From the NCBI GenBank assembly GCA_024734495.1, contig JALMQS010000075.1:5254832-5318831 (forward strand): a DNA stretch of 64,000 nucleotides, read 5' to 3'. Both the position numbers and the translations under genes were made by a program. A model generated the notes under the pieces. It saw only the letters and a program-made list of their open reading frames with translations. It had not been told where the DNA came from and did no database searches. Shown here in pieces: positions 5,801-64,000 of the stretch. This DNA is from Forficula auricularia (taxonomy: Eukaryota > Arthropoda > Insecta > Dermaptera > Forficulidae). The number at the start of each line of letters is the position of its first letter. Within the stretch, counting starts at the first letter, position 1.

Positions 5801-8096
5801 TTAAATATTAATGCCATATAATAGCATATTATTAATATAATTTTCGTATAATATGTTATATCCGGCCCGCCAATAGTTTTCAACGAGGGGTGAACCGCGA
5901 CCTAATATGCTGTACACCTACTTCCACTTGTACTTCCAAATATTTCCAAGTACTTCCAAAATATTTCAATTCCAAATATTTCCAAGTACTTCCAAAGATT
6001 CCCATGTACTTCCAAACATTTCCAAGCACTTTCACATATTTTCAAGTACTTCCAAAATACTTCCAAAGAGGTGTACACCTACTTCCAATCGCGGATCACC
6101 CCTCGGTTTTCAATGTTCACATGTGGCCCTATCTCTTAAAATGTTTGCGGACCCCTGGTCAAGAATGTTAATTTTTTAACAAAAATTCTCAAAAAGTTTG
6201 TTAATAAGTGTCTATATGAGCACCATTTCTAGCGCGGTACACATTTAAGCGGTATTCTGTTTATATCCACGTTCGGGGAATTATGACTCGAAGCGACAAT
6301 CTCCACTATCATTCCAAGCAAATGGTTTAAATCCCGGAGTTTCACAGCAGAAACAATGTTCTTTACATGGCCCCAGAAAGAGGAATCCAGCGGCTTGAGA
6401 TCTGGACTTGGCGGGGGCCAGGAAATAGGCCCTGTTATCATACCAAGCTCCTAATTTTTTTTTATTATGGGATTTATAAAATGGATCAATATTATAAGTT
6501 TTTTTTTGTTGGTTGTGTTGTATATTTAATCATTTTAATTTTTTGAACCTTCTACCCTATTCTGGACCACCTTGAACTTCATATAATTATATATAATACT
6601 AGCTGCAAGGCACGCCCCCTGGACCCACACCCCGAAACCCACCCAGCACCCCCGCCCCACACCACCACCCACCTCGGACTTCCACCCCTGTACCACCCCA
6701 CTACGCCTCTGGACCATCACCCAAACCGCCCACTCGACCAACCCTGCACCACCACCCCCGCCTCCTGGACTTCACCCCCACCCTACTCCGCCTCACTCCA
6801 CCCCCGGACCCTCATACCACACCCCGCCCCATCCCTCCACCCCTGCACCCACCCTCCGCACCCATTTTTTGCATTTCTAGCCTTTTACCCACAGGTTATG
6901 TACACAAAATTTGGTTGAGTTTGGTCCAAGAACAAGAATTTTCATATTTTGACCCTCCCACCTTTTTGGGTGGTTTTGGGGAAAATAATAAAAATAAAAG
7001 CTGTTAGAAATCACATCCCCTACAACTTTGCTCATAATAAAATTTGCCGTAGAGTTAATAGTTTAGGAGTTATTTGATAATTTTCATTCGTGCCCCCCCC
7101 CCCAACCCCCTTTTGGGGTCAAAATATCAAAACGTTATATAGCTATAAACGTAAGTTAGAAGAAATCTGTTTCAAATATGAAATTTCATAATAATCCCTT
7201 AAGCCGTTTTTACGTGAATCGTTTTCGTTCGTAACTTTGCTTGAAACTTGTGCAACCAAAATTTGGCATGATTTGGACCAATGTACAGACAAAACCTTAA
7301 TTTTATATAAAGGATATTATTTAACGGGTTATAGTGGTGTTTCACAAGAAAATAAAATTAAAAAAATTAAAAAATCTTTTAAATTATTTTGGAGATTTTT
7401 TATTTATCTCTATACATATTTCGGGCTATGAACCCTTCATCAGGAGGTTAAACAGAACACTGAATATAAAAATTTTACATTGTGAGTTTTAATTTTTTTT
7501 AATTTTATTTCCTCTTTGTGAAACACCACTATAACCCGTTAAATAATAATTCCTTTGTTTAATATGTTTCACTATAAACCAACACCGCTTTCCCTAAACT
7601 TTATTAATTTTATATATATATATATATATATTATTTAATCTAATAAAACTGTATATTTCATTTACAGCTTCTTTGCATTATTTCTACAATCTTATTAAGA
7701 AATCCTGAACTTTCTTTTCAAAATTATTTGAATCTGGATTATTTAGTGGAAGAGGCAAATTCAATGTATTGTAAAGTAAGTAGATTTATTCTCGTGTATC
7801 ACACGACTTTCACTTAAGACCTTAAAATATTTAATAAAAAATTACTTTTGTTTCTATTAAAGTTTCTTTGGTATATTTATTTGATTTGAACCATAAACTA
7901 ACATGTTTTTCTTTTTTAATTTCAGGATAATAAAATTAATTCATCGAAAGATTATAACTCGTTTCTCTCTTCGAACTACTGTGTGACAACTGGCTATTTA
8001 GCGCGTGCTGTGGTCAATAATGTCCTTCAAGGTGGTCAATTGACAACTGATAATGAGGATGATATTGACCAAGGAGAACCCTGTCGAATTGCTTAA
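2814..8096 (+). CDS. PHKB: Phosphorylase b kinase regulatory subunit (beta-type), 3' six exons
   Basis: C-terminal part of a phosphorylase kinase alpha/beta regulatory subunit, the scaffold of the kinase that activates glycogen phosphorylase in the cytosol. Exons I place: 2814-2946, 3015-3217, 5067-5201, 5274-5514, 7668-7775 and 7926-8096 (stop TAA 8094-8096), all with AG/GT borders and matching phases. Recognisable stretches are [62 protein letters not shown] and YRQIVVE, which match the beta subunit better than alpha. The protein ends GEPCRIA, a CaaX-like box; family C-termini are farnesylated. The intron after 5514 is 2.2 kb and holds nested hAT elements and a Helitron. A polyadenylation signal AATAAA lies at 8271-8276. 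The start of the first exon (2814) rests on the TTCTAG acceptor just before it; the N-terminal two thirds lie outside the window. Confidence 0.9.
3415..3452 (-). ncRNA. Decayed hammerhead-like motif
   Basis: The minus strand reads CTGAAGGACGACAAAACGTC then GGTTC. It keeps the 5' CTGAAG and the ACGTCGGTT 3' end of the family seen intact at 36197-36251, but part of stem II and the GAAA are lost. Confidence 0.4.
3690..3742 (-). ncRNA. Decayed hammerhead-like motif
   Basis: The minus strand has CTGAAGGGGAGAAATCCCCC followed by AAAAAGTCG: a perfect stem II hairpin, but the CUGAAGA core is shortened and GAAA is altered. It belongs to the GTCGG-type family. Confidence 0.4.
3895..4945. mobile_element. 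Inverted-repeat element with degenerate hammerhead arms
   Basis: Arms at about 3895-3962 and 4846-4945 are inverted copies sharing ATTCTCCCGAAACGTTTGGC and AACGTGTTCTAGA. Each arm has a stem II hairpin (GGGAGAAATTCTCCC or similar) then GAAACGTTTGG, but TTGAAAA replaces the CUGANGA core. The interior (4061-4860) is a separate dispersed repeat whose second copy is at 59610-60180. Lies in a PHKB intron. Confidence 0.55.
4061..4860 (+). repeat. Dispersed repeat (second copy at 59610-60180 and 60655-60740)
   Basis: Long near-identical match to 59610-60180, starting TTTACTTTATCCAATGCGAA and including AGCACGTGACGGTTTTGCCA. It contains two internal direct repeats of about 135 bp (near 4450-4585 and 4660-4790). 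No open frame; class unknown. Confidence 0.6.
5691..6157. mobile_element. hAT-type MITE
   Basis: Ends CAGGAGTCCCCAAACTACGG and GGACCCCTG are the inverted ends of a widespread hAT family. It is flanked by GTCTAGAA (5683-5690) and GTCAAGAA (6158-6165), an 8-bp target duplication with one mismatch. A second copy of this family lies at 10045-10612. It is interrupted by a second, smaller hAT at 5884-6105. Confidence 0.8.
5884..6105. mobile_element. Nested hAT-type MITE with internal minisatellite
   Basis: A 222-bp insert with ends CGAGGGGTGAACCGCG and the inverse CGCGGATCACCCCTCG, flanked by perfect 8-bp GTTTTCAA duplications (5876-5883, 6106-6113). It is absent from the sister host copy at 10045-10612. 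Its interior is an array of about 11-nt units of the type ACTTCCAAAAT/ATTTCCAAGT. Confidence 0.85.
7310..7603 (-). mobile_element. Hammerhead inverted-repeat element with 13-bp TSD
   Basis: A 294-bp unit inserted into the Helitron, flanked by TTAATTTTATATA at 7297-7309 and 7604-7616. Inverted arms run from the left end and up to about 7552 (ATTATTTAACGGGTTATAGT and complement), followed by a unique tail (7553-7603) containing CAACACCGCTTTCCCTAAAC, which resembles the tail of the 295-bp copy at 56506-56800. An intact hammerhead core lies in the left arm. The TSD is AT-rich but agrees in length with those of five other copies. Confidence 0.75.
7396..7453 (-). ncRNA. Hammerhead ribozyme, intact core
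   Basis: Minus strand: CTGATGA (7443-7437), stem II GGG/CCC around TTCATAG, GAAA (7422-7419), a short palindromic stem III, then AUA as the NUH site with predicted cleavage after 7411. Stem I pairs CUC before the core with GAG after the cleavage site, then further A-U pairs. It is antisense to the PHKB transcript. Confidence 0.75.
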
Positions 8097-8443
8097 TAAT
8101 TTTCCTAAAGTATATCATTGCATAGATATATTTTAATTTTCATTACATATATTATATATATATTTACATATTATCTCCATTAAGTTTTGTTGTTTTTATT
8201 TTGTTTTTAATTGTAATGTATTATAAAATGTATAACTATCTAAGTAAATTCTATATTATATTTTCGAAGAAATAAAATTTTGTTATAAATATCCGAAACA
8301 GTTTAAGTATTTATTTTTTGTGGGTGAATGTGAATGTTGAATGAAACAAAGTGAAAATATTATTAAATAGATATGAAACGGATAAATTATTAGTTGGAAA
8401 TGAGAAAAATAAAGTTTGGGGTAGGTTTTAGGGATGCTTTTAA

Positions 8444-9128
8444 GGTAGTTGATTCGCGACAATACTAGCAAAAATTTAATGCTAGCGTATATAGAACAGA
8501 CAATAAGGATTCTTAGTTCATAAGCCCAAAACTTGTTGCTGTTTATGTACCAATTCTAGCCAATCCCGTGGTTGTTTGACAAATTTGGCACCATTGTAAG
8601 AGTTTGAATATTTTTATATTAAATACATTTTAAATTTCTATAAAAATCGTTTTATTTTTAAATGTAATCAACCCCTACGTTACACTTTATGAAAATTATA
8701 ATTTTGAAAAAATCTAGCGCATGCTTCTTTCGCTGGTTAAATAAATGCGCTGTTGCCAAATTGTTTTTAGTGTAAATTTTTTTTATACATTTTTCATTAT
8801 TTATTCCTTATTATCTCAGAAACTGTGTTGTAACTATGAATCAAAATTGTCTTAAAATATGTATTATTTATTGTTTAATGTTGGTTTATTTTTTATGACA
8901 ATGGTAAGAAGGGTTTCTTAATTATAATTAAATATATGTAAACTTTCCGATATCCCGTATAGTGCAATGTATAAGAGTGAAAAACTCTTATCTTTGGAAT
9001 TTAATATCTCCGCAACTATATTGTTCATAAATTTCGTTTTGCCACCAAACGATGCAGAAGTATTTAAATAATAATCTGTCTAAATTTCAAAAAAATCCTA
9101 AGAAAACGTATTTGGCGGAACAACTACC
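8444..9128. mobile_element. TTAA-flanked 'GGTAGTTG' DNA transposon MITE, copy A
   Basis: Inverted ends GGTAGTTG...CAACTACC are flanked by TTAA (8440-8443 and 9129-9132). Sister copies at 31251-31943 and 41632-42229 share AATACTAGCAAAA, AAGCCCAAAACTT and TTCGTTTTGCCACCAA. The TTAA target suggests a piggyBac-like mobiliser. No transposase frame is seen. Confidence 0.75.
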
Positions 9129-9159
9129 TTAAACTTAGAATCACATAAATTAATTTACC

Positions 9160-9690
9160 CCTTTATTTTTTATACTTTGTGATTTGGAATTGACCTAGAA
9201 TCTGCTAGAAATTGTTTAAGTGAAATGCTAAATTAATGATAATTACCCACCTTTGAGAGTGAAGGGTTATTGAAATAAATCAATTCACACAATTTTCGGG
9301 ATTAGTGCGTTAGAATTGCCCTCTAGAATCAGGTAGATATTATCCTTCTATGTGAAATGTTAAATTTAGAATGTTACCACTTTCAGGGAATAAAGGGTTG
9401 ACCATAAAAATTAATTCACTCCAAATTTGGGATCAGTGCATTAGAATCAGGTAGAAATCATCCTTTTATGTGAAATGTTAAATTAAGGGTCGCTACCTCT
9501 TTTAGGGGATGAAGGGGTGATCATAAAAATTAATTCAGCTTATATTCGTGCTTAGTTTTTTTGGAAATGCATCCTTACAATTAAAATGCTAAATTAAGGG
9601 TAGTTACCCCTTTTGGGGATGAAATGTTAATCACAAAAATCAACTGCACTTAATTTGTCCTTAATATATTTTTTTCCTTTGACCGTTCTC
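9160..9690. repeat. Tandem repeat, about 4 units of 110-130 bp
   Basis: Units share GTGAAATGTTAAATTAAGGG and AGGGGATGAAGGGGTGATCA, with key positions near 9220, 9350, 9470 and 9583. Spacing shrinks from about 130 to 112 bp and the units diverge. Lies between the convergent PHKB and FKBP6-like 3' ends. Confidence 0.65.
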
Positions 9691-9779
9691 ATCTAAAAAC
9701 CACTGATGTTTGCTTAACCTCTCTGATTGGTACTTTCTACATGCATTTTTGGTGATCCAAAAGAGATATTTATATATAT

Positions 9780-10022: not shown

Positions 10023-10044
10023 AAGAAGATATATATAAAATAAA

Positions 10045-12131: not shown

Positions 12132-15100
12132 TTATTCTTTGGAGATTATTATGTTGGAGGGATTCTCCTCGCAATAACAAAATGTCAGATTCAATTCGGT
12201 AGCCTTGTCTTTGATCATTTTAAGTTCTTCATGAGTCAATCCTTTAGGGAGGATAAGTTTTTGGCCTTGTTGCAGTTCTTTGAAACTTTGCGTGAGATAA
12301 TTTAGTAAAGAATTATTCGTTGCTTCCTCCTAAATAAAAAATAAAAAACACACAGATGAGAAGAGTTCATATTAAGAGATGGAGGATTGCTATGGAATAT
12401 TTTAGAAGGCGAAGGGTGTAAGAAAAGTGTAAGATCTTGGAATATTTTCACCTGAAAATGAAAGATAAAGGATATGGGGCTCTTAGAGAAGTGAAAGAGT
12501 TGTGTAGAGGATGAAAGTTTGGTCGAACCAGCCTTAGAACTGTATATTCAGTTTATATGTTGTTGGATGTTGGTGAAGATCGTGGCTGTGATCAATTTGT
12601 AGTGGGTTGAAGGAGTTATTCAGTCAAAGCAAGGATGCACCCGCGGGTACAAGAATAGAGAGGTTTCGGCCTGAATTTATCGGGCCATCTTTAGTTTATT
12701 GTTAATTATACACATATTACCATAAATAGATGTGATTGTTCCTGGTTTTGTCAACAATAAGAAATTTAACTCCATATTTTGATTCATCTGCTTGTTGCTC
12801 TTTTACTCGTTCTTTAAATCTCAGGATGGATGGTGAGTATAAGAATAAATAATTATATTATTTATTATAAGAGGTTTTTACTTTATTTATTTTTGGTTTA
12901 CAATGGTGGCCAAAATTTTTCACATTGTTTCGGCATTCTCTGCCTTCATCAGAACCTTAAAAATAAGCTGTCGTGTTCTGATGTGGCCATCCACTTATAC
13001 ACCATACTACCATAAAACCTGGCCCCCCACTTATATTTAATACTAGCTGCAAGGCCCGCCTTCGACGGCCCTCTTGCTAGCCAGGGGGCACGCTCCCTGG
13101 ATCCCCAACCCACGAACCCTACTCCCACCCACCGACCGCCCACCAGCACCTCCCGCCCCCAGCACCTCCCACCCCCGTGCCCAACCACCGCCCCCATCCC
13201 ACCACCCCGCACCACCCCACTACGCCCCTGGACCCTCGCCTGAACCCCCCCACTCCACTCTGCACCACCCTACCCCCAACACCCCGGGCCCCACCCACCC
13301 CGCACCACCCCACTAAGCCTCTGGATCCTCACCTGAACCCTCACTCCTCACTGCACCACCCCACCCCGCACCCACCCCGGTCCACCCCATTACGCCTCTG
13401 GACCCTCAACTAAACCCTCCACTCCACCCTGCACCCCCCACGGCCCACACCCAGTTTTTTTTTCATTTCTAGCCTTCTAGTATACAAAATTTTGTTAAGT
13501 TGTCTCTAAGGGCCGGTTGTATGTCGCAAAGTAAATGCTTTTTACCACTAACAAACGGTAGATGGTAAATGGAGCCACTGGGATGGCCAATCAGATGACA
13601 GGCACTGAAAGTGGCTCCATTTAGTGGTAAAAAGCATTTACTTTGCGACATACAACCGGCCCTAAGGGTATGAATTTTCATTTTTGATCCCCCCCCCCCC
13701 ATTTTGGTTGGTTAGTTTTTGCATTTATAGCCTTCTATTCTAGGAGCCTCATCTTTTTTTTTTTTTAATGCAATCGAATGCAAGAAGGGGCGCACCAGTA
13801 GAGATGCAGCCACTATGGATCTCGAAAGACCCTTGAATTACCGAAGAGAAGGGAAAGTTGATTAAGTGAGAGGGTGTAGACGTACTCTAGGTGTTTATGC
13901 ACTCGGGTTTTGAAGGTTTGAAGATTATAAGTGCTGGGAAAGATGGAGGCTAGGAGAGAGTTCCAGTTCCTTGAAGTCATGGGGATATACACGTATTGGC
14001 GAATGAAGTGGTCCGGCACTTTTCTAATTTGACCGCGAAAGAGTGTTGGGAGTCGGCAAAACGCGTGCTACGCGCAAAGCATGCTTTGGGGGAATTACTG
14101 ATTTCAACTCATCTGAGCATCTGCCTGTCTCTGATCTTGAGCTCCAGCACACTAAATATATGAAGTTAAATTTCTTATTGTTGACAAAACCAGGAACAAT
14201 CACATGTACTTATGGTAATATCAGTATAAAACACAACAAACTGAAGATGGCCCGATAAATACAGGTCGAAACGTCTTTATTCTAGGAATTTTATTGGACC
14301 CGGTGCATCCTTGCTTTAGCTGAATAATTTCTTCTATTCAGTCTATATTTGAAAAGATTTTCTTTCCAAGAGAGTGGTTGGTTTTTAAAAAGAGAATCAA
14401 TTATTATTATAATAAATAAAATGTTTACCTGCTCTTGAGTGGATTCGATATCTTTGTCATCGTTTTCGTTATCAGGAGATATTTTTGAATTTTTATTAAA
14501 ACTACCAAATATATTACGAGCAAAATTTTGAGTATCTTTTTTGTATTTTATCTGCTCAGATTCAAGCTAAAATAAATAATAAAAAAAAATTAATTAGGCT
14601 ATTTATATTGTTGTTTGGAAGTCACTGCTTGTTAAATTATTATTTAATATTATTGCAAAAATTTATTCTTTGAAATCAAATTGATTCTTGTATTTTGTTG
14701 ATAAAAAATAAAATTTGATATAATTTGTCTTAAGGAGGTTCGGGACAGCTTATCTATCTGGTTGATATCTTTTGAATTTCTGCAGAGTGACAACTTCTGC
14801 CTACTAAATTTTTTAATAAAAAAAAATTGTTATTAATGAGGTTAATTTCGAATAAAAATCTTTGTTTTGATAATATTAATAAAAAGAATATTGAGATAAA
14901 TTTTTTCTCATTATAAAAACATTTATTTAACACAAAAGCGATCAAGAAATAGAGTTGGAATTCTACACTAGTGTTTTTTGTTATATTCTGTTGGCTGCAA
15001 ATAACTTTTTTTTTTTTTTACATTTACGAATAACTAATTAACTAGACTGTCAAATCTATTGAAAAATGTATCATTCGATTCATAAAAGTTGAATTATTGA

Positions 15101-18100
15101 TCTATATAAATTTGTTGAAAATGCTATAATTTGTATAGAAGTTATAGCCCTTTTAAAAGCTCGGTCCATTTACTTCCATGTTAAAAGGACAATTTTCAAT
15201 AATTTATTTCTCGAGAATGGGACAGACGATCAAATTCAAATTTCGGGAATACATATTTAATACATCAATGATTTGATAGTAAAAATTCGAGAATTTTCTT
15301 ATAAAAATGATAAACAGTCACGAACCTCCTTAATTTGTTGATTTATATTAAAAACATTATTTATAAATCTATTTATTTGTTTGTTTTTATGAAGTAGTGT
15401 AAAACAAAGGCGAGATTAATTTTTCTCTCTTTTTTACGTACACATATTCATATAGAGAAATCAATGAGGTTGTTCTCTGCTTGAATGCAAATAAACAGAC
15501 ATAGCATCTAAATATTTGGTGTAGGGTAGCGATTTTCACAATTTTCAAAAAAATACCCCTAACTCGAAAATTATCAGTATGTATTATTTTATTTATTATT
15601 ATCATTTCCGTCCATAATTTGTATTAATTTGAAAGTTTATAATAGAAAAATAAGGACAAATTCTTATGTGTGACTTTTTTATTTATCAGCACCAACGTTT
15701 CGTCGACTTTTGCCGACTTCTTCAGGGCTTCAAATAGTCACGTCACACATTCGTCTAAATTTTTTTATCTTCGTTACCATTGAAGACCATTAGAAAAATA
15801 AATTTCAAAAAATATTTGGCACATTCACATAAATATATGTGTGACATGACTATTTGAAGACCTGAAGAAGTCGACGAAACCTTGGCTGATAAATAAAAAA
15901 GTCACACATAAAAACTTATCCTTATTTTCCTATTATAAACTTTCAAATTATTTTATTTTGGCCTATCTTCTCCCTGTCACCGGATTAACGCTGAGTTTTG
16001 AAATACCCTGTATAAGTTGTGAATTTCGAGTTTACGAGCTACAATGCTCTGAAAAATAGGCACTCGAGCAGTCTGTATCGAGACTATGTTAATAAGGATT
16101 CAGTTTTAGTTTTGAACGGAACCCAAAAAATGACCATTATCAGGCAATGATTTTTATTTACTAGAATTGCTTACTGACTTTGATGATAACAAAATAGAAA
16201 TTATTGGAAATTTACCTTCTTAAGAAGTGTGTTGACATCTTTATTTTGTGGATCAAGTTGGTAAGCTTTACTCAGAAACTTTTTGGCCACTGGGAAATCA
16301 CCTAAAGTGATTAATGCTTTGGCATGACTAAAAACAAAACAAACAAAAATATTTAAATAAACATTTTAGAGATGTGCAAAATAGTTTATTAAAAGTATTT
16401 AAATTCAAAATGCAAATGCTTAGTTATTAGGTTATTACTTTACAATACAGGGTATGGTCAAGTATTGTAATCGTGCATGAAAAAAGTGTTTTTTTCCTTC
16501 TTTTTTTCGAAATATCTCAAAAACGGCTGAAACTATTTTGATTAAAAAAATTGAGCGAAACCATGGCATATCGCTCTACAAAAAAGCCCTAATAAATGAA
16601 CATCGAAAAAATTATATTTTTCGAGATAATAATTTTGTCAAAATGTCTGTTAAATTGTTAGTCTGTCTGTTAGTCAGTCTGTGCGTTACCAAATTTTTGT
16701 GGACTAGCTAGCTCAAAAACTAGTGTGAATATCAAAACCAAATTTCACACGTAGTTTTGGTCCATTGAGAGTAAATTAAAGCGCTGATTAGATTTTGGTG
16801 CATATCGACCCAAAATTGAGGGGGGGTTAAAAATTAAAAATCTAGGCCATTTGAGCAAACTCAACCAAATTTTGTATACATAATCAGTGGAACCCTAGAA
16901 GACTAAAAATGCAACAACTAACCAGCCAAAGTGTGGGGGGGGGGTCAAAAGATGAAAATATATGCCCTTATGCCAAACTCAACCAAATGTTGTAGGTATA
17001 CATAATCAGTGGGCACCCAGGAGTCTAAAAATGCAAAAACTACCCCCCCCCTACATGATTATAAATAATTTTATTAAATTTAAGAGAGGGGCCAGGGTGT
17101 ATGGTAAAGTCAAGTGGATGGCCACATCAGAACGTGTCAATTTATTTTTTATTTCAAATACAAATACAAAATGCAAAATACCTTATTTTACTGATTCTAA
17201 CACCATTATTTATTCAAAGAGTTCATCTTTCATGTTCCGTCTATGTGGCCTCATAATCATTTCACCAAACGAAAATAGTCATTCAACAGGTGAAGAACTT
17301 GGTAAGCAAGTATAATATTTAAGGAAGAGTTTTTTTTACATTTGGATATCTGTTCAAGGATTCTAAAGTAATGTCTTCGTCTTTTAAATATTGTAGTTAT
17401 TTCCAGGTCTATTGTAGTATTAGCATTTTGAATACAATTTTACAAATTAGTCAAAGGTCAGCAAACAAAGATCGATAACGGTTGAATTTTTATGAATTAA
17501 AAAATTTCACAAAAACCATTTTGTATTTTGCATAAATCTTTATTACTCGACCTGCTTAGAAGCACAAGTCCTCGGTGGCTAGGTCAACAAAACATCGATA
17601 CAAATTAACCACAGAAATTAATAAACATAAATACAAATCAATTAAAAGAAATTAACAATTAACAAACAAGAAAAAGAAAAAAAATAGAAATGTATGCACA
17701 TTAACAAATAACATGATCATAGATTTCCATCAAAAGTCAAAACGTAATTTAAATAATTCCGCGCAAAAACCCGATACCAGGAGCAAACGGCGCATTAGCC
17801 ATTTCTTATTTTCCGATTGTTGAAATTTTGCACGAATCATCACAATAATAGAACTCCCCTATAGATTTTCAGAGGTTTTTCCCACCTGTCTATACTATTA
17901 TTATTTTTTATTGATTAATTTATGGGGAAAACTCCAAGATGTTCGTTTTTTGCAACGAAATATTTATGAATAGTGGATTATTGTGTGATGAACCAACAGT
18001 AAGTAACTTTTTCATATCATTCTCTAGTGCAAAAGTGAACTATAATGTGACATGGCTCTTTCTTGAAGAGAATAATCTTCTGGGAAACAAGTTAATTTAG

Positions 18101-21100
18101 CGAATGTTTTCTACATTTGATTCAATCGCGAATCAACTGTAGGGAATTTTTGTCAAATATTGAGTGAAAATAATATTTGAACTTATATATTTCTAACTTG
18201 AAATAATGACCTTAAATAAATTTTTTATAATTTTTCTAACTAATATAACAAAGAATAATTGCTATATCAATGAGAATTGTTTTGACCGAGCTTATTTGAA
18301 AAAGATATTTATCACGAGACTACTGCGGATTATGCTATTGAAGTCTGTGGAGTCTTAAGTCTGGACCAAGAGAGAAAAAAATATGTGATCCACTTAGCTA
18401 CAATCCAACGTCATTTCGCGTAAGACCCGCACCCAAAGATACCTTCGACCCCTACCCAGCCTATAAAATCCCCTCTTCTTCTTCTTCTTCTTTTCTCGAT
18501 GGAGGGGCCTACCCAGGCCTTTAGGAGATGCATCTCTTTGGTGTAACTCCTTCTCTCATCAATTTCATTAAAAAAAATATATATATATTATAATAAATCT
18601 TGATCAATAAATTATTATTGATATATCGATAAATATTAAAATAATTTTTTTCTAAAATATTCTTGGATGGCTTTATTTATAGACCAAGATCCCAGCGACC
18701 CTAGCAGACCTACGTCAAAAGTATAAAGCCTAAGATTTTTTCTATGGGTGGGTATGGGTACTATAGTTGGCTAAATGGGCACCTAGGTTCCCGAGGCCAA
18801 TAAAAAAAAAAAAAAAAAATAGGTACTATAGTAAGTTATAACGTATGGGTATTAGCTAACATGGATCAGGTGGGCTTTGGAATATAGGGGTTAGCCGAAG
18901 AGGTGAAAAAATGGGTTAATCTACGACGTGGATTAACCCATTTTTTCACCTCCTTTGGTAAGTGATATCTGCCAAAGCCCCTGACCCAAGTTAGCTAATA
19001 CCCATACGTTATAACCTACTATAGTACCTAGCCATAGAAAAAAACTTAGGCTTTATACTTTGACGTAGGTCTGAGGTCGCTGGGATCTTGGTCTATTAGC
19101 TTTCAGTATCAAAATTGGTAACAAAACAGAATTTTATAAAAATTTGCAGCAAAATTTGATGAAAATAGATCATGTACTGACTATAATGGCTGTTATCTAT
19201 GTTTGTATGCATATACAATGAATGAGAGATGAATTAGTTTTCCCGAAACGTTTGAAATTTAATTAAAAATTTCAACTGATAGATTTTGTCTTATAAAAAA
19301 AATGGTAATTTTGTAAATAATAGAATAGAAGATAAATAATAATACATACTTGTAATAGGCTTTGATGCTATTTCGGTCATAATAGATTGCTTGTCTACTC
19401 ATGGAACAAGCCAAACCTGGACGAGATTGAAGATTATAAACCACAGCCAGATTATTATAAAGTTTAACTAAAAGTTTCGAATATTTCTCTTCCTCCTCTT
19501 CAGATGCTAAATTTACACCATTTAAAATTTCCAAAGCTTTGCGATATCTATAAATAAATACAAAATATATGTGTATACCTATATAAATATATAATAAATT
19601 AATAAAATTTCTTAAAAATAAAATTCATTAATTTTTTTTTAGGAGTTCTAGGCAATTGGAGACATAGATAATCATCATTTTTTAGTTTGTTAGATTTTTA
19701 TTAAATTTGCATATCAGAGAAACGTTTCCTCAAGTGTGACGTCATCAGCAATTTCGTTTTAAAAAGGAACATTTTATTTTATTAAAGGAATTGTAGGGAG
19801 TTGGACTTGACTTTAAATTAAATACAAAGTTTTTTATTTAAATAGGTCAAACGTTTCGTTGATAGTTCGCAACTTCTTCAGTGGCTCATTTATTTAACTT
19901 ATTTGTCTGGGGTTTTGACTAAGAGAAAAACCATTTTCAAACAGTATCCTTACGAATCCCTCAATTTTATCAAATAATATAAAACATAAACCTTTTAAAA
20001 CAATGTAATTATTTCCCGTCAAGTATAATTAAAAGAATCAAATTGAACAAAGAATTTTTACTTTACCATACAGGTGTAATCGTGCACGAAAAAAGTGGTT
20101 TTTTTCCTTCTTGTTTTCGAAATATCTCAAAAACGGCTGAAACTATTTTGATTAAAAAAATTGAGCGAAACCATGGCATTTCGCTCTACAAAAAAGCTCT
20201 AATAAGTGAACATCGAAAAAATTATTTTTTCGAGATAATAATTGTTTTGTCAAAATGTCTGTTTGTCTGGTTGTCTGCGCGTTACCAAATTTTTGTGGAC
20301 GAGCTATCTCAAAAACTAAGTAGTGTGAATATCGAAACCAAATTTCACATGTAGTTTTGGTCCATTGAGATTAAGAGCTGATTAGATTGTATGGTAAAGT
20401 CAAGTGGATGGCCACATCAGAACACGTCAGTTTATTTTTTTTTGTTCATTTTGATTCTTTTAATTATTGACAGGAAACAATTAATTTGTTTTAAAAGGTT
20501 TATGTTTTATATTATTTGATAAAATTGAGTGATTTGTAAGGATACTGTTTGAAAATGGTTCCTCTCTTAGTCAAAACCCCAGACAAATAAGTTTAATAAA
20601 TGAGCCACTGAAGAAGTTGCAAACCAGCAACGATTTTTTATAATGTAATTTTTTTTTATTTTATTTACTATAATTATAAAAATTAAAAATAAATAATAAA
20701 ATTAATTATTTTATTTTGTAAAAATTACTTAGAATGATGATGTCCAAAGTAAATAAAGGAAATAATATTTTTTCTGTGAAATCCATAATAAACAAATTAA
20801 AACAATAAAATTAGTTTTATGAATAAAAGCGAGTTTTTAATTTAAAAAAAAATGTTTTTTTTTCAAAATTATAAAGTCTAGAGGATGTAAATTTTCGCCA
20901 CAATATTAACTTTTCATCAAAGATCAAAAATTTGCAGTCCCTTCTGACATGCAATAGATAGATAGATATTTTTATTTGTTCAGAACAAATTTGTTATACA
21001 AAATAGTTGTGCATTATTTTCCAGATCATTATAAGAAATAAATGAAAAAACTATTACTATAAAATTGATACAGACAAGATAATCAAATCGGAGTACACTC

Positions 21101-29478: not shown

Positions 29479-30550
29479 TCTATATAAATAAAATTAAGGT
29501 TTTGTCTGTACATTGGTCCAAATCACGCCAAATTTTGGTTGCGCACGTTTCAAGCAAAGTTATGAACGAAAACACCCTCAACAAAATTCCTGTCTGTCTG
29601 TATGTTTCCGTGGTTTCCGCGAAAAGTTGCTCGCGATTCACGTAAAAACGGCTGAAGGGATTATTATGAAATTTCATATTTGCATCAGATGTCTTCTAAC
29701 TTACGTTTATAGCTATATAACGTTTTGATATTTTGACCCCAAAAGGGGGTTTGGGGGGCGCACGAATGAAAATTATCAAATAACTCCTAAACTATTAACT
29801 CTACGGCAAATTTTATTATAAGCAAAGTTGTAGGGGATGTGATTTCTGACAACTTTTGTTTAAAAAAATTCCCCCAAAAAACCACCCAAAAAGGGGGGAG
29901 GGTGAAAAAAATGTAAATTCTTGCCTTTGGAGCAAACTCAACCAAATTTTGTATACATAATCTGTGGGCCTCTAGAGAGCTAGAAATGCAAAAACTAACC
30001 ACCCAAAATGGGGGGAGGGTCAAAAAATGAAAATTCTTGCTCTTGGTACCAAACTTAACCAAATTTTGTATACATAATCTGTGGGTCACTAGAAGCCTAG
30101 AAATGCAAAAAGTGGGTGCGGGGGTTGAATTGAGTGAGGGTGGGTTAGGGTATGATATGGGGTGGAATGGGGGTGGGCGGGTGAGGGAGTGAGGCGGATT
30201 AGGGTGGGGGTGCAGAGGGTAGTGCGGGGTGGAGTCCAGGGGACTAGGAGGGGGTGTGGTGCGGGGGTGCAGGGCACGCTGTGGCGTGCGGGGGTGGTGG
30301 TGCAGGCTTCGTGGAGTGGGGGTTCAGGTGAGGCTCCAGAGGCGTAGTGGGGTGGTACGGGGGTAGGTGCTGGATGGAGTGTTGGGGTGGTGGTGTGGGG
30401 GCGGGGTTGGGCACGGGTGCATGGTGTTGGGGTGGGGGTGCTTGTGGGTTTCGGGGGGTGTGGTGGATAGGAGTGGGGTGTGAGGGTGGGGATCCAGGGG
30501 CGTACCCCTGGCTGGGCAAGAGGGCCGCCGAAGGCGGGCCTTACAGCTAG
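29479..30550 (+). mobile_element. Helitron, complete non-autonomous copy
   Basis: Begins TCTATATAAATAAAATTAAG after A (29478) and ends GGCGGGCCTTACAGCTAG before T, with a GGCC/GGGCC-type hairpin near the 3' end. It holds the CTGTCTGTCTGTATG box and a G-rich array (30112-30480). No Rep/helicase. Lies just upstream of the FKBP6-like start codon (29276). Confidence 0.75.
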
Positions 30551-30709
30551 TTTATATAAAAAATTGATAATAATATACATGTTTTCTTTTAATAAAATAT
30601 TTTGATTAATAAAGAATAAATGAGAGTGTCTTCTGCTTGATATATAAGGTGGCCAAGTGCGAGTGAGATTCCCATCCATAGAGCACTGCACGGACACTAG
30701 GGGTTCTGT

Positions 30710-51500: not shown

Positions 51501-54500
51501 TTTATTAGAGAACGAATTTAATCTTTAGGACAAATTCCAAGATTTTAGTAGAAATATTATTAAATTGCAGCCAAGCGCTGCTCGCCGATTCCTCCTTCGG
51601 GAGGGTCCAGTTTTTGCTTGTCTCAAATGGACATTCGAGTTTCGATTATCCTCGAGAAATGAAAAGGATAATAAATGAGAACTCGGATATTTGAGATCTT
51701 AAGGATTTTATATTCGTATAAAATCCCAATCATAGAGCGATTTCTGGGCCTATATATAATATATTGCGATTCAGAGAGGTTTTTTGTCTCGAGGGTGTGA
51801 GCTGACTGCCCGGAAAGCATGTTAGTTCTCAGGTTCGTCTCCTGAGGGGATGAATCCCCTCTAATATCGCAATTTAATAATATTTGTACTAAAATCTTTG
51901 AATTTGTCCTAAAGATTAAATTCTTTCTTTTAATCTGAACCCGAGTTGATTTTTTGAAAAACATTCCAACTATTTTCAAAAAAAAAGATGCTCAAATCTT
52001 TAGTTTTATATATTTTAGTATTAGTATTAATAATACTTTTTTTTTCTTTAGGATTAATAAGAAAATTCCAAGAGGTCCTCCGTCTCCGCCCGCCCCCGTA
52101 ATGCATTCACCTACCAGAAAAGTAAGCTTTATTCTAAAATTATTTATATAATTATTATTATTATTGTTTATAAGAAAAATTCTTAGATACTCTTATCGAG
52201 TTTCTAGATCACATTTAGAATTTAATTCAAATCAGTCCATCATTTCTGTCTATCCTCTTGATTAAACTTCTCCACCACTCTTCTATATCCGCCCAAATCA
52301 CTTTTTAAACTCCTCCATATGCAGAGCATGAGCAACTTTCCCCGGCTCCACTTTGCACCCTCGGCTCTTTTTCCTTCTTGATCCTTAAGATGTTCTCCAA
52401 TGTTGCTTGTCCCCTATTCTATCTTCAATCCTATTGTCAGTCCACAAACTATTATTTTCAAACACCTCTCCATTTATCACGTTATCCAAAGTTCGAAAAT
52501 TAGTAATAGTAACGAATAAAACCCGTGGCGTCACATGGGAACACTAACTGTCTAAACAACACCTCATTGAGCTTGTTTGGGTACGCATTTTTGAAATGAA
52601 ACTGTAAAGTTCAATAATTGAAAATTTTAGAGTCAAATGAACAATTCTAATTTGCCATCCGGTCTTTGAAGGGTTTCGTATTGTGAACTTTAGCCTTATT
52701 TTTACATAAAGCTTCAGGGTGCAATCACGAGTTTTAAGTCCAAGGACAATTTTACAAATTAAATTAGATAGATGAAAAAAAATTGTATTATAAATGAGGG
52801 AGGTGTTGGAATAGTTAATAAATAGTCGGACCATTTCAGAGCCTTAAAAAATGAATAAAGAAAGAATTCACTATAATTAAATCCGATCTTCATATTGACA
52901 TTGGGCATGGATTTTTGATCTGGGATCTGTGCTCATGTTCTAGAGCGCTTCTTAAACTTTTTTCATTCGTGACCCCATTTTGACTGAGAAGTTAAATAGA
53001 AATGGAATGAACACATCTCTGTGGCGAAATCTGCAGCAAGGAAGATTGGCTTCTATTCAGGTCCAAGCGATTTTACAAACTCCCACAACTTCTCACCATC
53101 TACAAGGCCCAAATCCGCCCCTATCTCGAATACGGCTCTCATCTGTGGAGAGGAGCCTCAAAATATTCTCTTGCTACCCTTGATGGCAATCTAGAAACGA
53201 GCCGTCAGGCTAATTGACGATTCTCACCCTCACCGACTCTCTCGACTCGCTGGCTCATCGAAGAGATGTCTCTGCCCTTCCTGGGTCTATAGATACTATC
53301 ACGGCAGGTGCTCTGGATGAGATGAAATCAATAATTCCCCCCAAAGCATGCTTTGCACGCAGCCACGTTTTGCCGACTCCCAACACTCTTTTGCGGTCAA
53401 ATTGAAAAGTGCCGGACCACTTCATTCGCGAATACATATATCCCCATGACATCAAGGAACTGGAACTCTCTCCCAGCCTCTATCTTTCCCAGCACCTATG
53501 ATCTTCAAACCTTTAAAACCAGGTGTACAGACACCTACGTCTACACCCTCTCACTTAATCAACATCCCTTCTTCGGTAATTGCAAGGGTCTTTCGAGATC
53601 CATAGGGGCTACATCTTTACTGGTGCACCCCTTCTTGCATTCGATTGCATTAAAAAAAAAAAAAAAAAATATGATATAAACCATAATTTTTGCTAGCAAA
53701 TCAAAAATAAATTTATATTGAAGCAAATTTTTATAAACATACCTATTATAATAATTGTATCATTTATTAAAACTACACAATTACAATTATAAAATCTAAA
53801 TAATAATGAAATGGATCTGCTTGTTTCTTATTAAAGTACATGGAGCGGCAATTTCAAAATTATTGGATATTCAATGACAGATATACCTCGAATTTACTAA
53901 ACATTAATTTTTGGCCATTGACCATTGTTGCCCTATATTTCGCGACCCAAAAATTCAGTTTTACGTCCCCAAATGGAGTCGCTACCCATAGTTTAAGAAG
54001 CTCTGGTCTAGAGCCAAATGCACCGAACACTCGGTCCGAATCCCGGTGGATCCTTTTTCTCTATAATACTATTTTATCTTTATTATTCTTTAATTTAAGT
54101 AATTCCTAATGTGCCTGTACTAATTACAGAATTTGGACAAATCTACTTAATTTCCAATTTATCTGTATGTTTTATACCGATCTGAACTATCTGTTCAATA
54201 GTTTTAACTAGATTGGTTTCGTTCTCCTCTCCTCCTATCAATCCCCAACTCAGCCTCAAATAATTATTAATATATTGAAAAATCTGTTTTTTCATTTTCA
54301 CTTATTAGTTTTGTTTTTTGTTTTCAGGTCACTGTGAAAGAACAAAAAGAATGGAAAATTCCCCCATGTATATCAAATTGGAAAAACGCAAAGGTAAATA
54401 TTATTATAATTAAAATATGTGATGTGGCCATTTCATGATATTACCACCCAAATGAGCCCCCAAGAATTTAAAGAGCCTCTGTGGAAAATTTGGTCCAACT

Positions 54501-57500
54501 CTGACAGACAATTTATTTATTTATTTATTCATCTTAGGCTTCACACAAAATTTGGTAACCTACTAGACAAAATAAAAAATATCTCTTGAAATATAAATTT
54601 TTCAATATTCACGATACAAGGTTTTATCGTAGATTTTTTTTTTATCAAACTACATTAGCCGTTTTTGACATGTTTCAAAATACTAAATTTAACCCCATGA
54701 GCATGATTACAATACTTCAACACACCCTTTATAGTAAAGTAAAAAATGAATATTGAATTAAATATATTATTATTTTTTTTAGGGATATACTATTCCTCTG
54801 GATAAACGTCTAGCAGCCGATGGCCGTGGAATGCAACAAGTACATATTAATGAGAATTTCGCTAAACTTGCTGAATCTCTATATATAGCGGATAGAAAGG
54901 CTCGTGAGGCTGTTGAAATGCGGGCTCAATTGGAAAAGAAATTAGCCCAAAAGGAGAAAGAGAAAAAAGAGGAACATTTGCGCGCTCTTGCCCAAAAGGC
55001 TCGGGAAGAACGAGCTGGCATTCGGACACAAGCAGCTTTTGGTTAGTTCTGTTATATGGATATGATTAATTTTATATATGTCGTTTATTATAATAGTGGT
55101 GTAATTCCATGAAAGTGAATTCGAAGATAACGGGCTTTTTACAAATTGATATATAGGGAAATAAAGACAAGTATTCACTCAATTTTTTTTTATTGTTTAG
55201 TACAAATCAAAGATTTTATTTGTTGTAACTTACAAAATAAAACTAAAACTAATTAAATAAATGAACTTAAACTTTTTTCTGGAGATTTAGTTCTGCACTT
55301 TTTAGTTCCCTGAGTAAAGTAGTAGTGCCTTTTATGGGCTTTTAATGCAATATTTGGAATTGCTTCTCTTTTATAATTCAATATATGACTAAATGTGATA
55401 CTATTAAGCAAAAAAATGAAATTTAAAAAACTGCAGTAACACCACTATCTTATCTTATCTTATTATATTAAACGAGCAATGTTTATATATATATATCCGG
55501 TCAGGTTCTCTAAAACGGCTCTAACGATTTGTATGTAGGGGTGCAGGAGGTGGGTTGCAGTGGTGGTGGGGTGTCCGGGGGGAGGGGCGGGGGTGGGGTG
55601 TATTTGGGAGGTGGGGTGAAGTGGTGGGGTCCGGGGGCGAGGGGGGTTTCGGGGATTAATATATAGCTATTAACTGAAGCAAAAAGTTACCGAGCATTGC
55701 TCGGTGGCCCAGGTACTATTATATTAAACGACACATCTAGATTAGAGAGTGGATTTTTAGGCTCTTATTTCATAATAAATAATTCCTTAAAATCGTTTAA
55801 ATAGTCTCTTATAATTCATGAAATTAATAATAAAAAATCATAAAATTTAAACATTTTTAATTCGAACATTTGAGTGTTTTATAATTTTTATTTTATGAAA
55901 AATAGATGCAATTTTTAATAGATTGTAAAAACAACTCGCGGAGGCACCTTAACGACACAATTTTTAATTTAAATAAATACGAAAAAGAAAATCTAAGATC
56001 TCGATAGATATGTTTAAATGATGAGGACATGATATATGATATAATTATGATATTTTTATTTTAAAAAGTTTGACAGACAATATATTTACTTAAATTAGAA
56101 ATTAAATTGAAATTCGAACAAATTTTATTAAAATACTTCTTTAATAATTTCTTTAATATTCAATAATTTTCTAAACTCCTTAGGTTTTTTAAAAGTAGAA
56201 CCATTTATAATCCAAGTTATTTCATTGGATTTAATTGAAATTTTTTATAAATAAGTAGTTAAAAGTCCATTAAATAGTATCTTAAAGCTAAAAAGTATGT
56301 TATAGTAAAATTTTCTCTAATAAATAAAACTCAAAATTGTTAAAATTTCATTTTCGCTGTAGATCTCTAAAAAAAATTGCCAATAGATCCACTCAAAACA
56401 AAAATTATTATAACTAGAGACCGGATTCCTATGCAATTGCATATTTTGTTTGCCGCCACATACGATCCAGGGGATCAATTATCTATCCAAAACATGCATT
56501 TTATAATTATTGGATAAAAAATACTTGGTAGGTTTCACATTAAGATATAAAAATAAAACGAATTTATTTTTGGAGAATCTTAAATCTCGATATATATATT
56601 TCGGGTGACTACCCTATCAGTTACTTTCTGTTGCTCCTGAAGATGGGTTAGTCACCCGAAATATATATATCGAGATTAAAGTCTCTCCAAAAATAAATTC
56701 GTTTTATTTTTATATCTTAATGTGAAACCTACCAAGTATTTTTTATCCAATGATTTTAAAAAATATTTCATCAAGTATCAACACCAAATTCCTTAAAAAC
56801 CATGCATTTTATACTGCATATTTTTGCATATTTGAGTAATTTTGGAAAAAATTGCATATTTGAAGGATCTTTTGCGCCAAATACAATTTTTTTAAAAGAA
56901 AAGCTTGTTAATATAAAAAATAAAACCAATACAATACAATCGTGTCTGTAAAATAAAACTACCCCACCCCCGTATTTTTTCGTTCACATTTTTTGAAAAA
57001 TTATTATATTTATTATCTTGATTTTTATTCAAGTGCATTTATTATTTCTTTGAGTTTAAAGATTTTTTAATATTTATTAAATATGAGAATTTTGTGCAAT
57101 TTTTTACGAAATACAAATGCAAATTTGACATTGGTCTTAATGGCTTACTTTATCATTTTATTTTTTTCATAGCACTCCTTAAAATATATAGACTTTTTGT
57201 CTCCAATTTTAATTTTTTAGTGCAAAAAAAATTTATTTTGCCATCTTTTACTGCATATATTTGCATATTTCAACGTATTCTGCATATTACTTGCATATTT
57301 CAGCATTTTAACTGCATAAAAACCCGCTCTCTATATTTGATATCTAGTTTAAGGATGTATGAGATGAAATACTCTACGTCTCTCATACACCTTTAAAATT
57401 CCTTTTAAATAAATTTTTAACAGTTTATATTTATTTATTTGTTTTTAATAAGATAGATTTCTTTTTATTATTTTTTTGAAAAAGACGAAGAGGCTCGTGA

Positions 57501-62079: not shown

Positions 62080-62169
62080 GTGAGTATTCAATTTTTATTT
62101 ATTTAATACTGAGGTTAGTTTGAAAGACACTGGTCTAAAATTTATTGGAAACTTTTTTTTATTAATTAA

Positions 62170-62480
62170 ACAATTAAATATTCCAGCGCCTCCCAATCGA
62201 TCGCAGACCCCAAAGATCGAAAATAATTTTCTCTTCACCCGGGGCGCGACCACAACGAGGCCGTGTAAAGACAATTAATAACAAATTTTAAATTTAGGGA
62301 ACGAAGAAAAGATTATTTTTATTATAGACAAAAGGATCAGCCGGGGCTCGAATAGCTTAGTGGATATAGGAGCTAAAGCTCTTATGACAAAGCATTGCAA
62401 AGATCCCGGGTTCGAGCCCCGGCTGATCCTTTTGTCTATAATAAAAATAATCTTTTCTTCGTTCGCTAAATTTAAAATTT
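62170..62480. repeat. tRNA-derived composite repeat
   Basis: 62185-62290 matches the spacer at 51115-51240 in reverse (CGCCTCCCAATCGATCGCAG). 62333-62428 is a rearranged tRNA-like unit whose 5' half is an inverted T-arm joined to TAGCTTAGTGGATATAGG. Starts about 90 bp after the last SNW1 exon seen. Confidence 0.6.
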
Positions 62481-62559
62481 TCTTTTTATATTTTTAACCG
62501 ATCTTTGTGAGGATCTTCAATCCTTCAGGGTCTGTCTATAACAATTAAATTAATTATTA

Positions 62560-62605
62560 CTATAGTTTCGAGGGCTTTGCCCTCTTCACCAGTCTATTAC
62601 AATTG
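62560..62605 (-). ncRNA. Degenerate hammerhead
   Basis: CTGGTGA replaces CTGATGA; stem II GAGGGC/GCCCTC, GAAAC and TATAGT remain. Confidence 0.5.
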
Positions 62606-62687
62606 ATTCACAAGAATTAATGTCTACATTTACTGAAGGAGACAATAAAAGAGTGTGTCTTCTGCTGAAATTATACATTTTATTTAT

Positions 62688-62741
62688 TTATAACGAGACT
62701 ATAGTTTCGAGGGCTTTGGCCTCTTCATCAGTCTATTACAA
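62688..62741 (-). ncRNA. Hammerhead ribozyme, intact core
   Basis: Minus: CTGATGA (62731-62725), stem II GAGG/CCTC with one C-C mismatch, GAAAC (62708-62704), TATA, GTC (62699-62697). Confidence 0.7.
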
Positions 62742-62759
62742 TTGATTCACATTAATTAA

Positions 62760-62945
62760 TTGTAATAGACTGGCAAAGCCCTCGAAACTATAGTCTCGTT
62801 ATAAATAAATAAAATGTATAATTCCAGCAGAAGACACACTCTTTATTGTCTCCTTCAGTAAATGTAGACATTAATTCCTGTGAATCAATTGTAATAGACT
62901 GGTGAAGAGGGCAAAGCCCTCAAACTATAGTCTCGTTATAATTAT
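62760..62945 (+). ncRNA. Two degenerate hammerheads
   Basis: 62770-62805 lacks most of CUGAUGA and stem II 5' strand (CTGGCAAAGCCCTCGAAAC). 62895-62940 has CTGGTGA and CAAAC in place of GAAAC. Confidence 0.5.
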
Positions 62946-63378
62946 AATTTATAATTCCAGCAGAAGACACACTATTGTCTCCTTCAATATATAAAAATTC
63001 TGCTACCCTCGGCACAAAAACTTTCAATTTAATTGAGTGGATATTGATGAAGCAGTCCAAAAAAAGAAGATAATTTATACTATCTTTTTATTCATAAACC
63101 GACCTTTTGAGGCTATTCTCTCCTTCAGGGTTTTGAAAAGTCAGTCTTTTTACTTTTTTTTTTTGGTCTGCCCCATCAATATCCACTCGATTTCACTCAT
63201 CAGTCCGTCTCCAAAAATTACTTCAATCTTATTAATAATTTATTTGCAACGAAATTTTCTCTGGAGAGAGACGGACTGGTAGGATTTTAATTGAAAGTAA
63301 TGGACCCAGAGGTAGTGAGGAAAGAAAAAATTAACACATATAAAATAAGGTGTAATTTATTGGAATCCTTCCTCCTTT

Positions 63379-63430
63379 CCTTTCAAACCGACGGTTTCGG
63401 AGGATTTCTCCTTCTTCAGGGTTTCAAAGG
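63379..63430 (-). ncRNA. Hammerhead ribozyme, one extra C
   Basis: Minus: stem I CCUUUGAAACC/GGUUUGAAAGG, CTGAAGA (63419-63413), stem II GGAG/CTCC, GAAACC then GTC. The inserted C in stem III is the only change from the right-arm copy core. Confidence 0.65.
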
Positions 63431-63786
63431 GTCAATGAATGAAACAAATAAAATGCTCTCTTCTCTCCACAGTAGTGTTCAAAAACTTTCTTCATTTGTA
63501 ACAAAAGGCATAGAAAGACAAAATTTTTTTTCCTTCTTTTCTTAATTAGATGGCTAAATGGCTTTTGAATCTAATATATATAGACCAAACCCCTCCCATA
63601 GGTGCGCATCTGTCATGGGAGGGGTTTGGTCTATATATATTAGATTCAAAAGCCATTTAGCCATCTAACTAAGAAAAGAAGGAAAAAAAATTTTGTCTTT
63701 CTATGCCTTCTGTTACAAATGAAGAAAGTTTTTGAACACTACTGTGGAGAGAAGAAGGAAACATTTTATTTGTTTCATTCATTGAC

Positions 63787-63841
63787 CCTTTGAAACCCTG
63801 AAGAAGGAGGGAAAAATCCTCCGAAACGTCGGTTTGAAAGG
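63787..63841 (+). ncRNA. Hammerhead ribozyme, best example
   Basis: Stem I 63787-63797 with 63831-63841 (CCUUUGAAACC/GGUUUGAAAGG, ten pairs and one G-G), core CTGAAGA 63798-63804, stem II GGAGG/CCTCC (five pairs), GAAA 63823-63826, C, GTC 63828-63830 with predicted cleavage after 63830. Confidence 0.85.
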
Positions 63842-64000
63842 AAAGGAGGAAGGATTCCAATAAATTACACCTTATTTTATATGTGTTAATTTTTTCTTTC
63901 CTCACTACCTCTGGGCTGCCTTCCATTACTTTCAATTAATAATTTATCTTTATAAAAGAATTGTACAGTGGTACCTTGAGATACGAATTTAATTCGTTCT

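Follow-up and report, generated by a model that had tools for sequence, protein, structure and literature searches.

Hammerhead-bearing head-to-head units in Forficula auricularia as probable short insertions of Penelope-like elements

Introduction

A stretch of 64,000 nucleotides from the dermapteran Forficula auricularia (GenBank assembly GCA_024734495.1, contig JALMQS010000075.1, positions 5,254,832 to 5,318,831 of the forward strand; hereafter the window, whose positions are used throughout) contains many small inverted-repeat units in which hammerhead ribozymes are embedded. We consider it very likely that these units are short, 5'-truncated, head-to-head insertions of several families of Penelope-like elements (PLEs), or of small derivatives that are non-autonomous and rely on PLE proteins, and we infer that the PLE protein primes on both DNA strands, with one start site per strand. 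The evidence lies in the arrangement and truncation of the arms, in target-site duplications (TSDs) that abut one arm and lie well beyond the other, and in a ribozyme fold whose pairing is kept across families. Four units derived from tRNA stand beside the 13 ribozyme-family units (Table 1).

Results

Arms that meet at their 5' ends

The head-to-head layout, already noted in a sequence-only reading of the window, holds in the 12 ribozyme-family units whose arms were aligned and in a thirteenth (U37k) seen by blastn; in all 13, the 3' ends of the two copies point outward and their 5' ends meet centrally. The identity of aligned arms, gaps excluded, spans 149/169 to 77/77, so that the insertions seem to differ considerably in age. 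Their 5' ends are frequently unequal: the left copy of U6 ends 11 nt upstream of the scissile bond and the right copy runs on for 71 nt, and the right copies of U1 (at 7310) and U37k (at 37418) start downstream of the cleavage site, by 38 and 26 nt respectively, and are ribozyme-less. These two copies, together with a left arm at 36094 and others that are partial, contradict the initial claim that every arm carries one ribozyme. Three units (U7, U13 and U14) are nearly symmetric, with centres of 12-15 nt and arms that are 97-99% alike when gaps are excluded, and tandem ribozyme copies are confined to U13 (1/13).

Read-through of the predicted scissile bond is the rule, as 24 of 26 arms pass 5' beyond it, two stop 26 and 38 nt short of it and none ends there. 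The 26 arms are 24 tabulated ones plus the right arms of U1 and U37k; the right arm of U4 and the left arm of U8 were left out because they lack the 3' or the ribozyme part. On the other side, the outward ends fall into two ranges, ~51-104 and 99-146 nt past the cleavage site (U1 and U3 hand-corrected for the TSD). The arm sequences had been described as unrelated in their flanks, which does not hold for all of them: those at 22134/34157 and 34988 are 71-81% alike, those at 7310 and 56506 are 76% alike, and those at 15637, 19838 and 63286 are 75-78% alike over 51-57 nt around the ribozyme.

Table 1. Head-to-head units and a further near-intact hammerhead in the window. F1 to F10, ribozyme families; T1 and T2, tRNA-derived units.
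Unit (family)	Position	TSD	Hammerhead sites (strand)	Arms and tail
T1a	1789..2250	ATTATTATTTAT, 1789-1800 / 2239-2250		tRNA-derived, head-to-head; tail ~90 nt on left arm
U17 (F10)	3894..4922	none of at least 11 bp	relic; stem II and GAAACGTT retained	head-to-head arms 3894-3978, 4838-4922
U1 (F1)	7297..7616	TTAATTTTATATA, 7297-7309 / 7604-7616	7399-7455 in left arm (-)	right arm (+) 5'-truncated, without ribozyme, carries tail
U2 (F2)	12609..14334	none of at least 11 bp	14229-14287 (+); decayed partner in left arm	arms 12609-12780 (-), 14155-14334 (+); 1374 nt of other sequence between
U3 (F3)	15583..15958	ATTATTTTATTT, 15583-15594 / 15947-15958	15682-15737 (-); right-arm copy with 10-nt gap in stem II	tail on left arm
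U4 (F4)	19838..20633	top candidate 10 bp, left uncounted	19838-19893 (-)	arms 19856-20030, 20462-20633; right 3' end lost
U5 (F5)	22120..22392	CTGTTACTTATATT, 22120-22133 / 22379-22392	ribozyme sequence in both arms; near-intact 22223-22281 (+)	tail on right arm
U6 (F5)	34144..34421	GTAATGAGTATTG, 34144-34156 / 34409-34421	34253-34311 (+)	aligned arms 77/77 identical, 2 gap positions; tail on right arm
U7 (F6)	34974..35445	TAATAAAAATAAAA, 34974-34987 / 35432-35445	near-intact 35272-35330 (+); damaged copy about 35031-35084 (-)	12-nt centre; tail on right arm
U8 (F7)	36094..36349	none	36196-36252 (+)	left arm a 40-nt piece only
T2a	36431..36893	AAAGATAATAAA, 36431-36442 / 36882-36893		tRNA-like, head-to-head; tail on right arm, 84-111 nt depending on arm end chosen
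(F9)	36936..36994		near-intact (+), one core change (CTCAAGA); related relic 176-234 (-)	
U37k (F5)	37404..38510	TTAAAATAAAGTTG, 37404-37417 / 38497-38510	37463-37522 (-)	right arm 37561-37588 + 38436-38494, interrupted by ~850 bp with RT-like fragment (named by eye)
T2b	51494..52017	TATATATTTTA, 51494-51504 / 52007-52017		relative of T2a; tail 78 nt on right arm
U11 (F8)	56493..56813	CATGCATTTTATA, 56493-56505 / 56801-56813	56625-56683 (+)	tail on right arm
T1b	62184..62498 (left edge approximate)	none clear		left arm longer than right
U13 (F5)	62546..63031	none	62685-62743 (-)	head-to-head; each arm a tandem of two ribozyme copies, scissile bonds ~137 nt apart
U14 (F7)	63231..63947	ATTAATAATTTAT, 63231-63243 / 63935-63947	63378-63431 (-, stem III with 1-nt loop), 63786-63842 (+)	15-nt centre; arms 312/315 identical besides 15 gap positions; tail on left arm

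Target-site duplications and one-sided tails

TSDs were sought as the longest direct repeat lying at most 16 nt from one arm end and up to ~130 nt from the other, a rule that could equally accept symmetric units. With some arm ends adjusted, duplications of 11-14 bp were found in 11/17 units (13 ribozyme-family and four tRNA-derived). By comparison, such a match occurs in 1.4% of 3000 flank pairs drawn at random and in 5.9% of 272 pairs of mismatched unit flanks. In this version, U1, U5, U6 and T2a had arm ends that were shifted after the TSD candidates had been seen, which favours the outcome we report. When arm ends are kept exactly as aligned, T2a drops out and 10/19 inverted repeats have an 11-14 bp duplication, with chance rates of 59/5000 for random and 11/342 for mismatched flank pairs (1.2-3.2%). 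The T2a duplication appears with blastn or adjusted arm ends, and the blastn list of all inverted repeats, which merged or missed many units, was used only as this second definition of the T2a arms. Two unrelated inverted repeats (18820-19030 and 44333-44842), which are counted among the 19, have no TSD of at least 11 bp. The 11 duplications are AT-rich, with 13 G/C in 141 bases compared with 32% G+C for the window.

All 11 units with a TSD are asymmetric, each with one tailed and one untailed end, and none is symmetric. In ten of them the duplication directly adjoins one arm and is separated from the other by 30-111 nt; the right end of U37k was placed by a match extending over the tail of family F5, and its asymmetry was judged by homology to that tail. 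Tails measure 30-55 nt in the ribozyme units and 78-111 nt in the tRNA-derived ones. In F5, the family with most units, both kinds of end recur: the long arms of U5, U6 and U37k finish 0-2 nt past CTTTCAATTTA, a point to which U13 (F5, without a TSD) likewise extends, and by eye CTCCTT closes the short arm in both U6 and U37k, with a TSD starting with CAA right after it, the short arm of U5 ending 2 nt earlier. A CTTTCAA motif was seen by eye at an end in F3, F5 and F7.

These ends bear on two other ways of making inverted repeats. The units could be miniature inverted-repeat transposable elements (MITEs), that is, non-autonomous DNA transposons moved by a transposase acting on terminal inverted repeats and carrying a captured ribozyme sequence, as their small size, inverted repeats and TSDs might suggest. 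We regard this as very improbable and have rejected it, in that one arm is 30-111 nt longer than the other in every unit with a TSD, the central truncation of the arms is variable, TSD length varies from 11 to 14 bp, and the six families with measurable ends (F1, F3, F5, F6, F7 and F8) all carry the ribozyme ~51-146 nt inside the outward end. The initial view that these mobile units fall outside the standard MITE classes is borne out by the same asymmetric ends and variable TSD length.

The second is self-priming, in which one cDNA, or an antisense template, would fold back and prime the second arm, and the resulting hairpin would be integrated. Such a step has been suggested for Penelope on the strength of palindromes where the inverted copies join (PMC3846280), and the short centres and closely matching arms of U7, U13 and U14 speak for it. 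We think it unlikely, since copying back predicts two equal ends whereas one tailed and one untailed end are found in each of the 11 units, the untailed ends of the three F5 units lie within 2 nt of each other, and the inner ends of U1, U5 and U6 are unequal. Priming on both strands is favoured because a simple foldback would duplicate the tail, whereas all 11 units are one-tailed and the untailed ends of F5 recur.

Hammerhead ribozymes in the arms

A descriptor scan for an exact CUGANGA...GAA...UH core with stems I, II and III, in which a base after A9 is optional and stem I may contain an internal loop, finds 11 sites in the window, every one of them in a head-to-head unit, compared with a mean of 0 and a maximum of 0 in 40 dinucleotide shuffles. 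A stricter earlier scan, with no extra base and with a contiguous stem I of 3 bp, had found no exact site in the window; all 11 exact sites have a single additional nucleotide between A9 and stem II. An extra core nucleotide was reportedly described in a viroid hammerhead by De la Pena and Flores in 2001. The exact sites share the order of stem I, CUGANGA, stem II, GAAA and a palindromic stem III that had been read from the sequence at the outset. When the scan is relaxed to one change per core half, 21 sites are found, whereas the shuffles then average 7.2 (maximum 15), and on account of this background only the four high-scoring sites among the ten additional ones were taken as near-intact (176-234, 22223-22281, 35272-35330 and 36936-36994, with scores of 7.6-13.6; the remaining six score 2.0-3.2).

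The window holds about 15 intact or near-intact hammerheads, compared with the earlier estimate of about 13; the accompanying estimate of more than 20 relics is not clearly upheld. A covariance model (R1) built from 11 sites, which models stem II only, has 32 matches in the window with E no higher than 1, 25 of them at E<=0.02, training sequences included. The number of relics is thereby about 11 at the stricter of these thresholds and 17 at the looser one, where some may be chance matches. The exact-core site at 14233 is poorly scored by this model (E 0.81). No match to the Rfam hammerhead models was found at E up to 1 in the whole window or at E up to 10 within 33500-38600, and a pattern scan of viral contigs gave no match.

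Stem III is a loopless palindrome or near-palindrome of 4-10 nt in 10/11 exact sites, the exact site at 63378 having a stem III with a 1-nt loop. In F2, F3, F4 and F7 it is a loopless 4-nt ACGT, and F5 and F6 have an 8-nt stem III, ACTATAGT, in common. The minimal hammerheads of PLEs are said, by Cervera and de la Pena in 2014 and by Lunse et al. in 2017, to have a short palindrome as stem III, through which they could act as dimers. They share CUGANGA, stem II, GAAA and the short palindromic stem III with the sites here, whereas the extra nucleotide between A9 and stem II in the window sites may set these apart.

Pairing kept across families

Among nine family representatives, the seven pairs of stems I, II and III that vary are standard pairs in 61/63 cells, a value reached in none of 20,000 block permutations of the 3' strands among families. 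Pair 10.3-11.3 occurs in four forms (G-C, C-G, T-A and A-T), as does the second pair of stem I (T-A, A-T, C-G and G-C). The compensatory changes in stems I and II that the sequence-only reading had proposed to look for are therefore present, and they fit selection for the ribozyme fold. Because the nine representatives come from a scan that already demands some pairing, a second and less circular comparison picked sites by core letters alone. Fifteen of these 18 sites fall inside unit stretches, which make up 8.8 kb of the 64 kb, and a stem II of at least 3 bp is present in 13/15 inside and 0/3 outside. One of the 13 pairing sites, 12952, sits between the arms of U2 and in neither of them, and one of the two non-pairing sites within unit stretches, 19748, adjoins U4.

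That the ribozyme-like motifs are chance matches, or by-products of palindromes in AT-rich repeats, might be argued from the silence of the Rfam hammerhead models, and we find it hardly credible given the empty shuffles, the covariation across families and the difference in pairing between letter-picked sites inside and outside the units.

As judged from the sequences, covariation indicates that the fold is preserved in the source elements and says nothing of its use by the inserted units. Selection probably acts on the source elements, because most bases in a whole-unit transcript are predicted to pair within that transcript and the arms are copied from RNA uncleaved at that site. In the predicted transcripts of six whole units, on both strands, 71-93% of bases are paired, as expected of arm-to-arm hairpins, and such pairing would compete with the ribozyme fold. 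Hammerheads, usually minimal ones without helix III, are conserved in all available PLEs (PMC6155905), and those lacking helix III may self-cleave as dimers; the function of the ribozyme in the PLE cycle has been described as unknown (PMC7761336).

A closer rival, which overlaps with the PLE interpretation, is that the units are retrozymes, small tandem non-autonomous elements that spread via hammerhead-cut circular RNAs and are possibly moved by PLEs. Retrozymes may depend on PLEs (PMC8969392), and metazoan retrozymes resemble the window units in being small and non-coding and in having type I hammerheads (PMC7229834). The ACTATAGT stem of F5 and F6 can equally be read, retrozyme style, as two base pairs and a palindromic tetraloop, which would match the weak helix III of invertebrate and axolotl retrozyme hammerheads (PMC7229834), and U13 has tandem ribozyme copies. 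Published retrozymes, in contrast, are direct tandem repeats and not head-to-head, whereas 12/13 ribozyme-family units here are non-tandem, and the loopless ACGT of F2, F3, F4 and F7 makes for an even smaller stem III in four families. We rate a retrozyme origin as rather unlikely, a little less so than self-priming.

Units derived from tRNA

Head-to-head loci include two of T1 and two of T2, in which no hammerhead was found. Rfam tRNA matches fall at 50961 and 51322, in T1 copies, and T2 has a GGTTCGATTCC box which, by eye and against the consensus, we take to mark it as tRNA-like. Copies of T1 lie at 50961-51056, 51322-51417, 62251-62509 and 1821-2248, with tail ends near GGGAGGCG; the two of these copies that are not part of T1a or T1b are single and direct. 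The combination of head-to-head arms, a TSD of 11-12 bp and a long one-sided tail is present in 3/4 T units, or in 2/4 with unadjusted ends. A 3' region seemingly shared by T2 and a ribozyme relic at 19640-19780 is not significant, as 8/583 other window segments reach its local score and the best shuffle exceeds it.

Ordinary insertion of short interspersed elements (SINEs) driven by long interspersed elements (LINEs) does not produce two outward 3' ends, and mobilisation by PLEs is therefore suggested for T1 and T2. From their sequences, the three units with the PLE-type signature suggest PLE-mobilised SINEs, which may be new; no published statement on PLEs as SINE partners turned up in the portions of the literature that the search reached.

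Neighbouring repeats and other features

The RT-like fragment at 37589-38435 interrupts the F5 unit U37k and thereby gives a relative age. By eye, this frame and one at 13813-14067 are like the end of a jockey-type reverse transcriptase (RT), and Pfam has no match for 37589-38435. Pfam domains in the window are those of a mariner transposase, FKBP and proteasome. Two mariner-type elements lie at 23223-25017 (34 bp inverted termini and a transposase frame of 350 codons) and at 27555-28468 (30 bp). The G+C-rich stretches at 13040-13480, 6547-7007 and 29787-30745 have proline-rich frames that look alike by eye and are perhaps one repeat family, and degenerate tandem-like repeats around gtgaaatgttaaatta occupy 9160-9640. 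Rfam microRNA (miRNA) matches at 22183-22277, 36094-36194, 63525-63689 and elsewhere were set aside as generic hairpin matches on the arms, below gathering scores; hairpin-forming arms call for caution in the automatic miRNA annotation of such units.

Discussion

In the model presented here, an RNA with a minimal hammerhead near the junction of the pseudo-long terminal repeat (pLTR) and the open reading frame (ORF) would be bound by an RT-GIY-YIG protein, and the PLE protein would make a staggered cut in AT-rich DNA. Reverse transcription would then be primed on both cut strands, beginning at two internal positions that lie 3' of the ribozyme, and the two cDNAs would run inward, stop at variable 5' points and be joined. 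The product would have arms with their 3' ends outward and a TSD of 11-14 bp, one arm beginning at the near site (untailed) and the other at the far site (tailed). More tentatively, each insertion may use both start sites, one per cut strand, and the same machinery may move the ribozyme-less T1 and T2 SINEs, a proposal that we hold to be possible and somewhat short of probable. No published statement of one start site per strand turned up in the literature search, within the parts of the sources that it covered.

Although the units had been presented as a new kind of element, they match the published anatomy of PLEs, with inverted pLTRs, a one-sided tail and ribozymes. Penelope of the rotifer Adineta is bounded by inverted pLTRs, most commonly head-to-head, and has palindromes at its junctions for which self-priming was invoked by the authors; in Adineta vaga there is an optional one-sided 31-bp tail and the TSDs are of 8-10 bp (PMC3846280). 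The Penelope elements of Drosophila virilis and A. vaga share with the window units the head-to-head inverted pLTRs, the optional tail on one arm, the TSD, AT-rich targets, 5' truncation and palindromic inner junctions, and differ in that the window units are without a found PLE ORF and comprise several families within one 64 kb stretch. Three hallmarks of PLEs can be recognised here: a minimal hammerhead in the putative pLTR, present as 11 exact-core sites; inverted head-to-head pLTRs with an optional one-sided tail of 30-40 nt, the tails here being 30-55 nt; and a TSD at AT-rich sites, of 11-14 bp in 11/17 units (10/19 unadjusted).

The closest functional parallel is Poseidon of Anolis carolinensis (PAc), in which a ribozyme likewise lies shortly before two internal RT start sites, and these bound a tail of 30-40 nt. 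The anole protein cleaves and extends both DNA strands in vitro, with a preference for AT-rich sites, and the sequence between its two start sites is the tail (PMC11167929). Its commonest start lies 111-118 into the ORF and the ribozyme cut at 26 (PMC11167929), which by arithmetic places that start 85-92 nt past the scissile bond, to be set beside the end points of ~51-104 and 99-146 nt in the window. Unprocessed RNA is the dominant template for the anole PLE (PMC11167929), and the arms that read through the cleavage site are, as sequences in a genome, an independent hint of an uncleaved template here too. Whereas PAc is full-length and was tested in vitro, the window offers insertion products alone, and these suggest the use of both starts in each insertion.

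Several observations weigh against the PLE interpretation or parts of it. Six of the 17 units (U17, U2, U4 with 10 bp, U8, U13 and T1b) have no TSD of at least 11 bp, and the duplications that were found are longer than the 8-10 bp of the rotifer Penelope. Chance matches of at least 11 bp under the search rule are themselves asymmetric by more than 20 nt in 44/60 cases, and the asymmetry carries weight only because the TSDs themselves are unlikely by chance. Pfam revealed no PLE reverse transcriptase or GIY-YIG ORF among 10 of the 27 ORFs of at least 110 amino acids, the ORFs between the arms of U17 and of U2 being judged by eye only. For the anole PLE, no difference between strands in the use of start sites is reported (PMC11167929). 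Finally, the near-symmetric centres of U7, U13 and U14 are not obviously given by two independently truncated cDNAs, and they remain a point for self-priming, or for both cDNAs reaching a common 5' end of the RNA.

Short units such as these seem to preserve, in nature, the outcome of individual PLE insertions. Initiation inside the RNA, at two fixed sites and on both strands, is consistent with them, and they show copied RNA that was uncleaved at the ribozyme. The idea of one start site per strand can be tested by counting end types in any genome. If it is true that T1 and T2 use the PLE machinery, PLEs would join LINEs as partners of SINEs.

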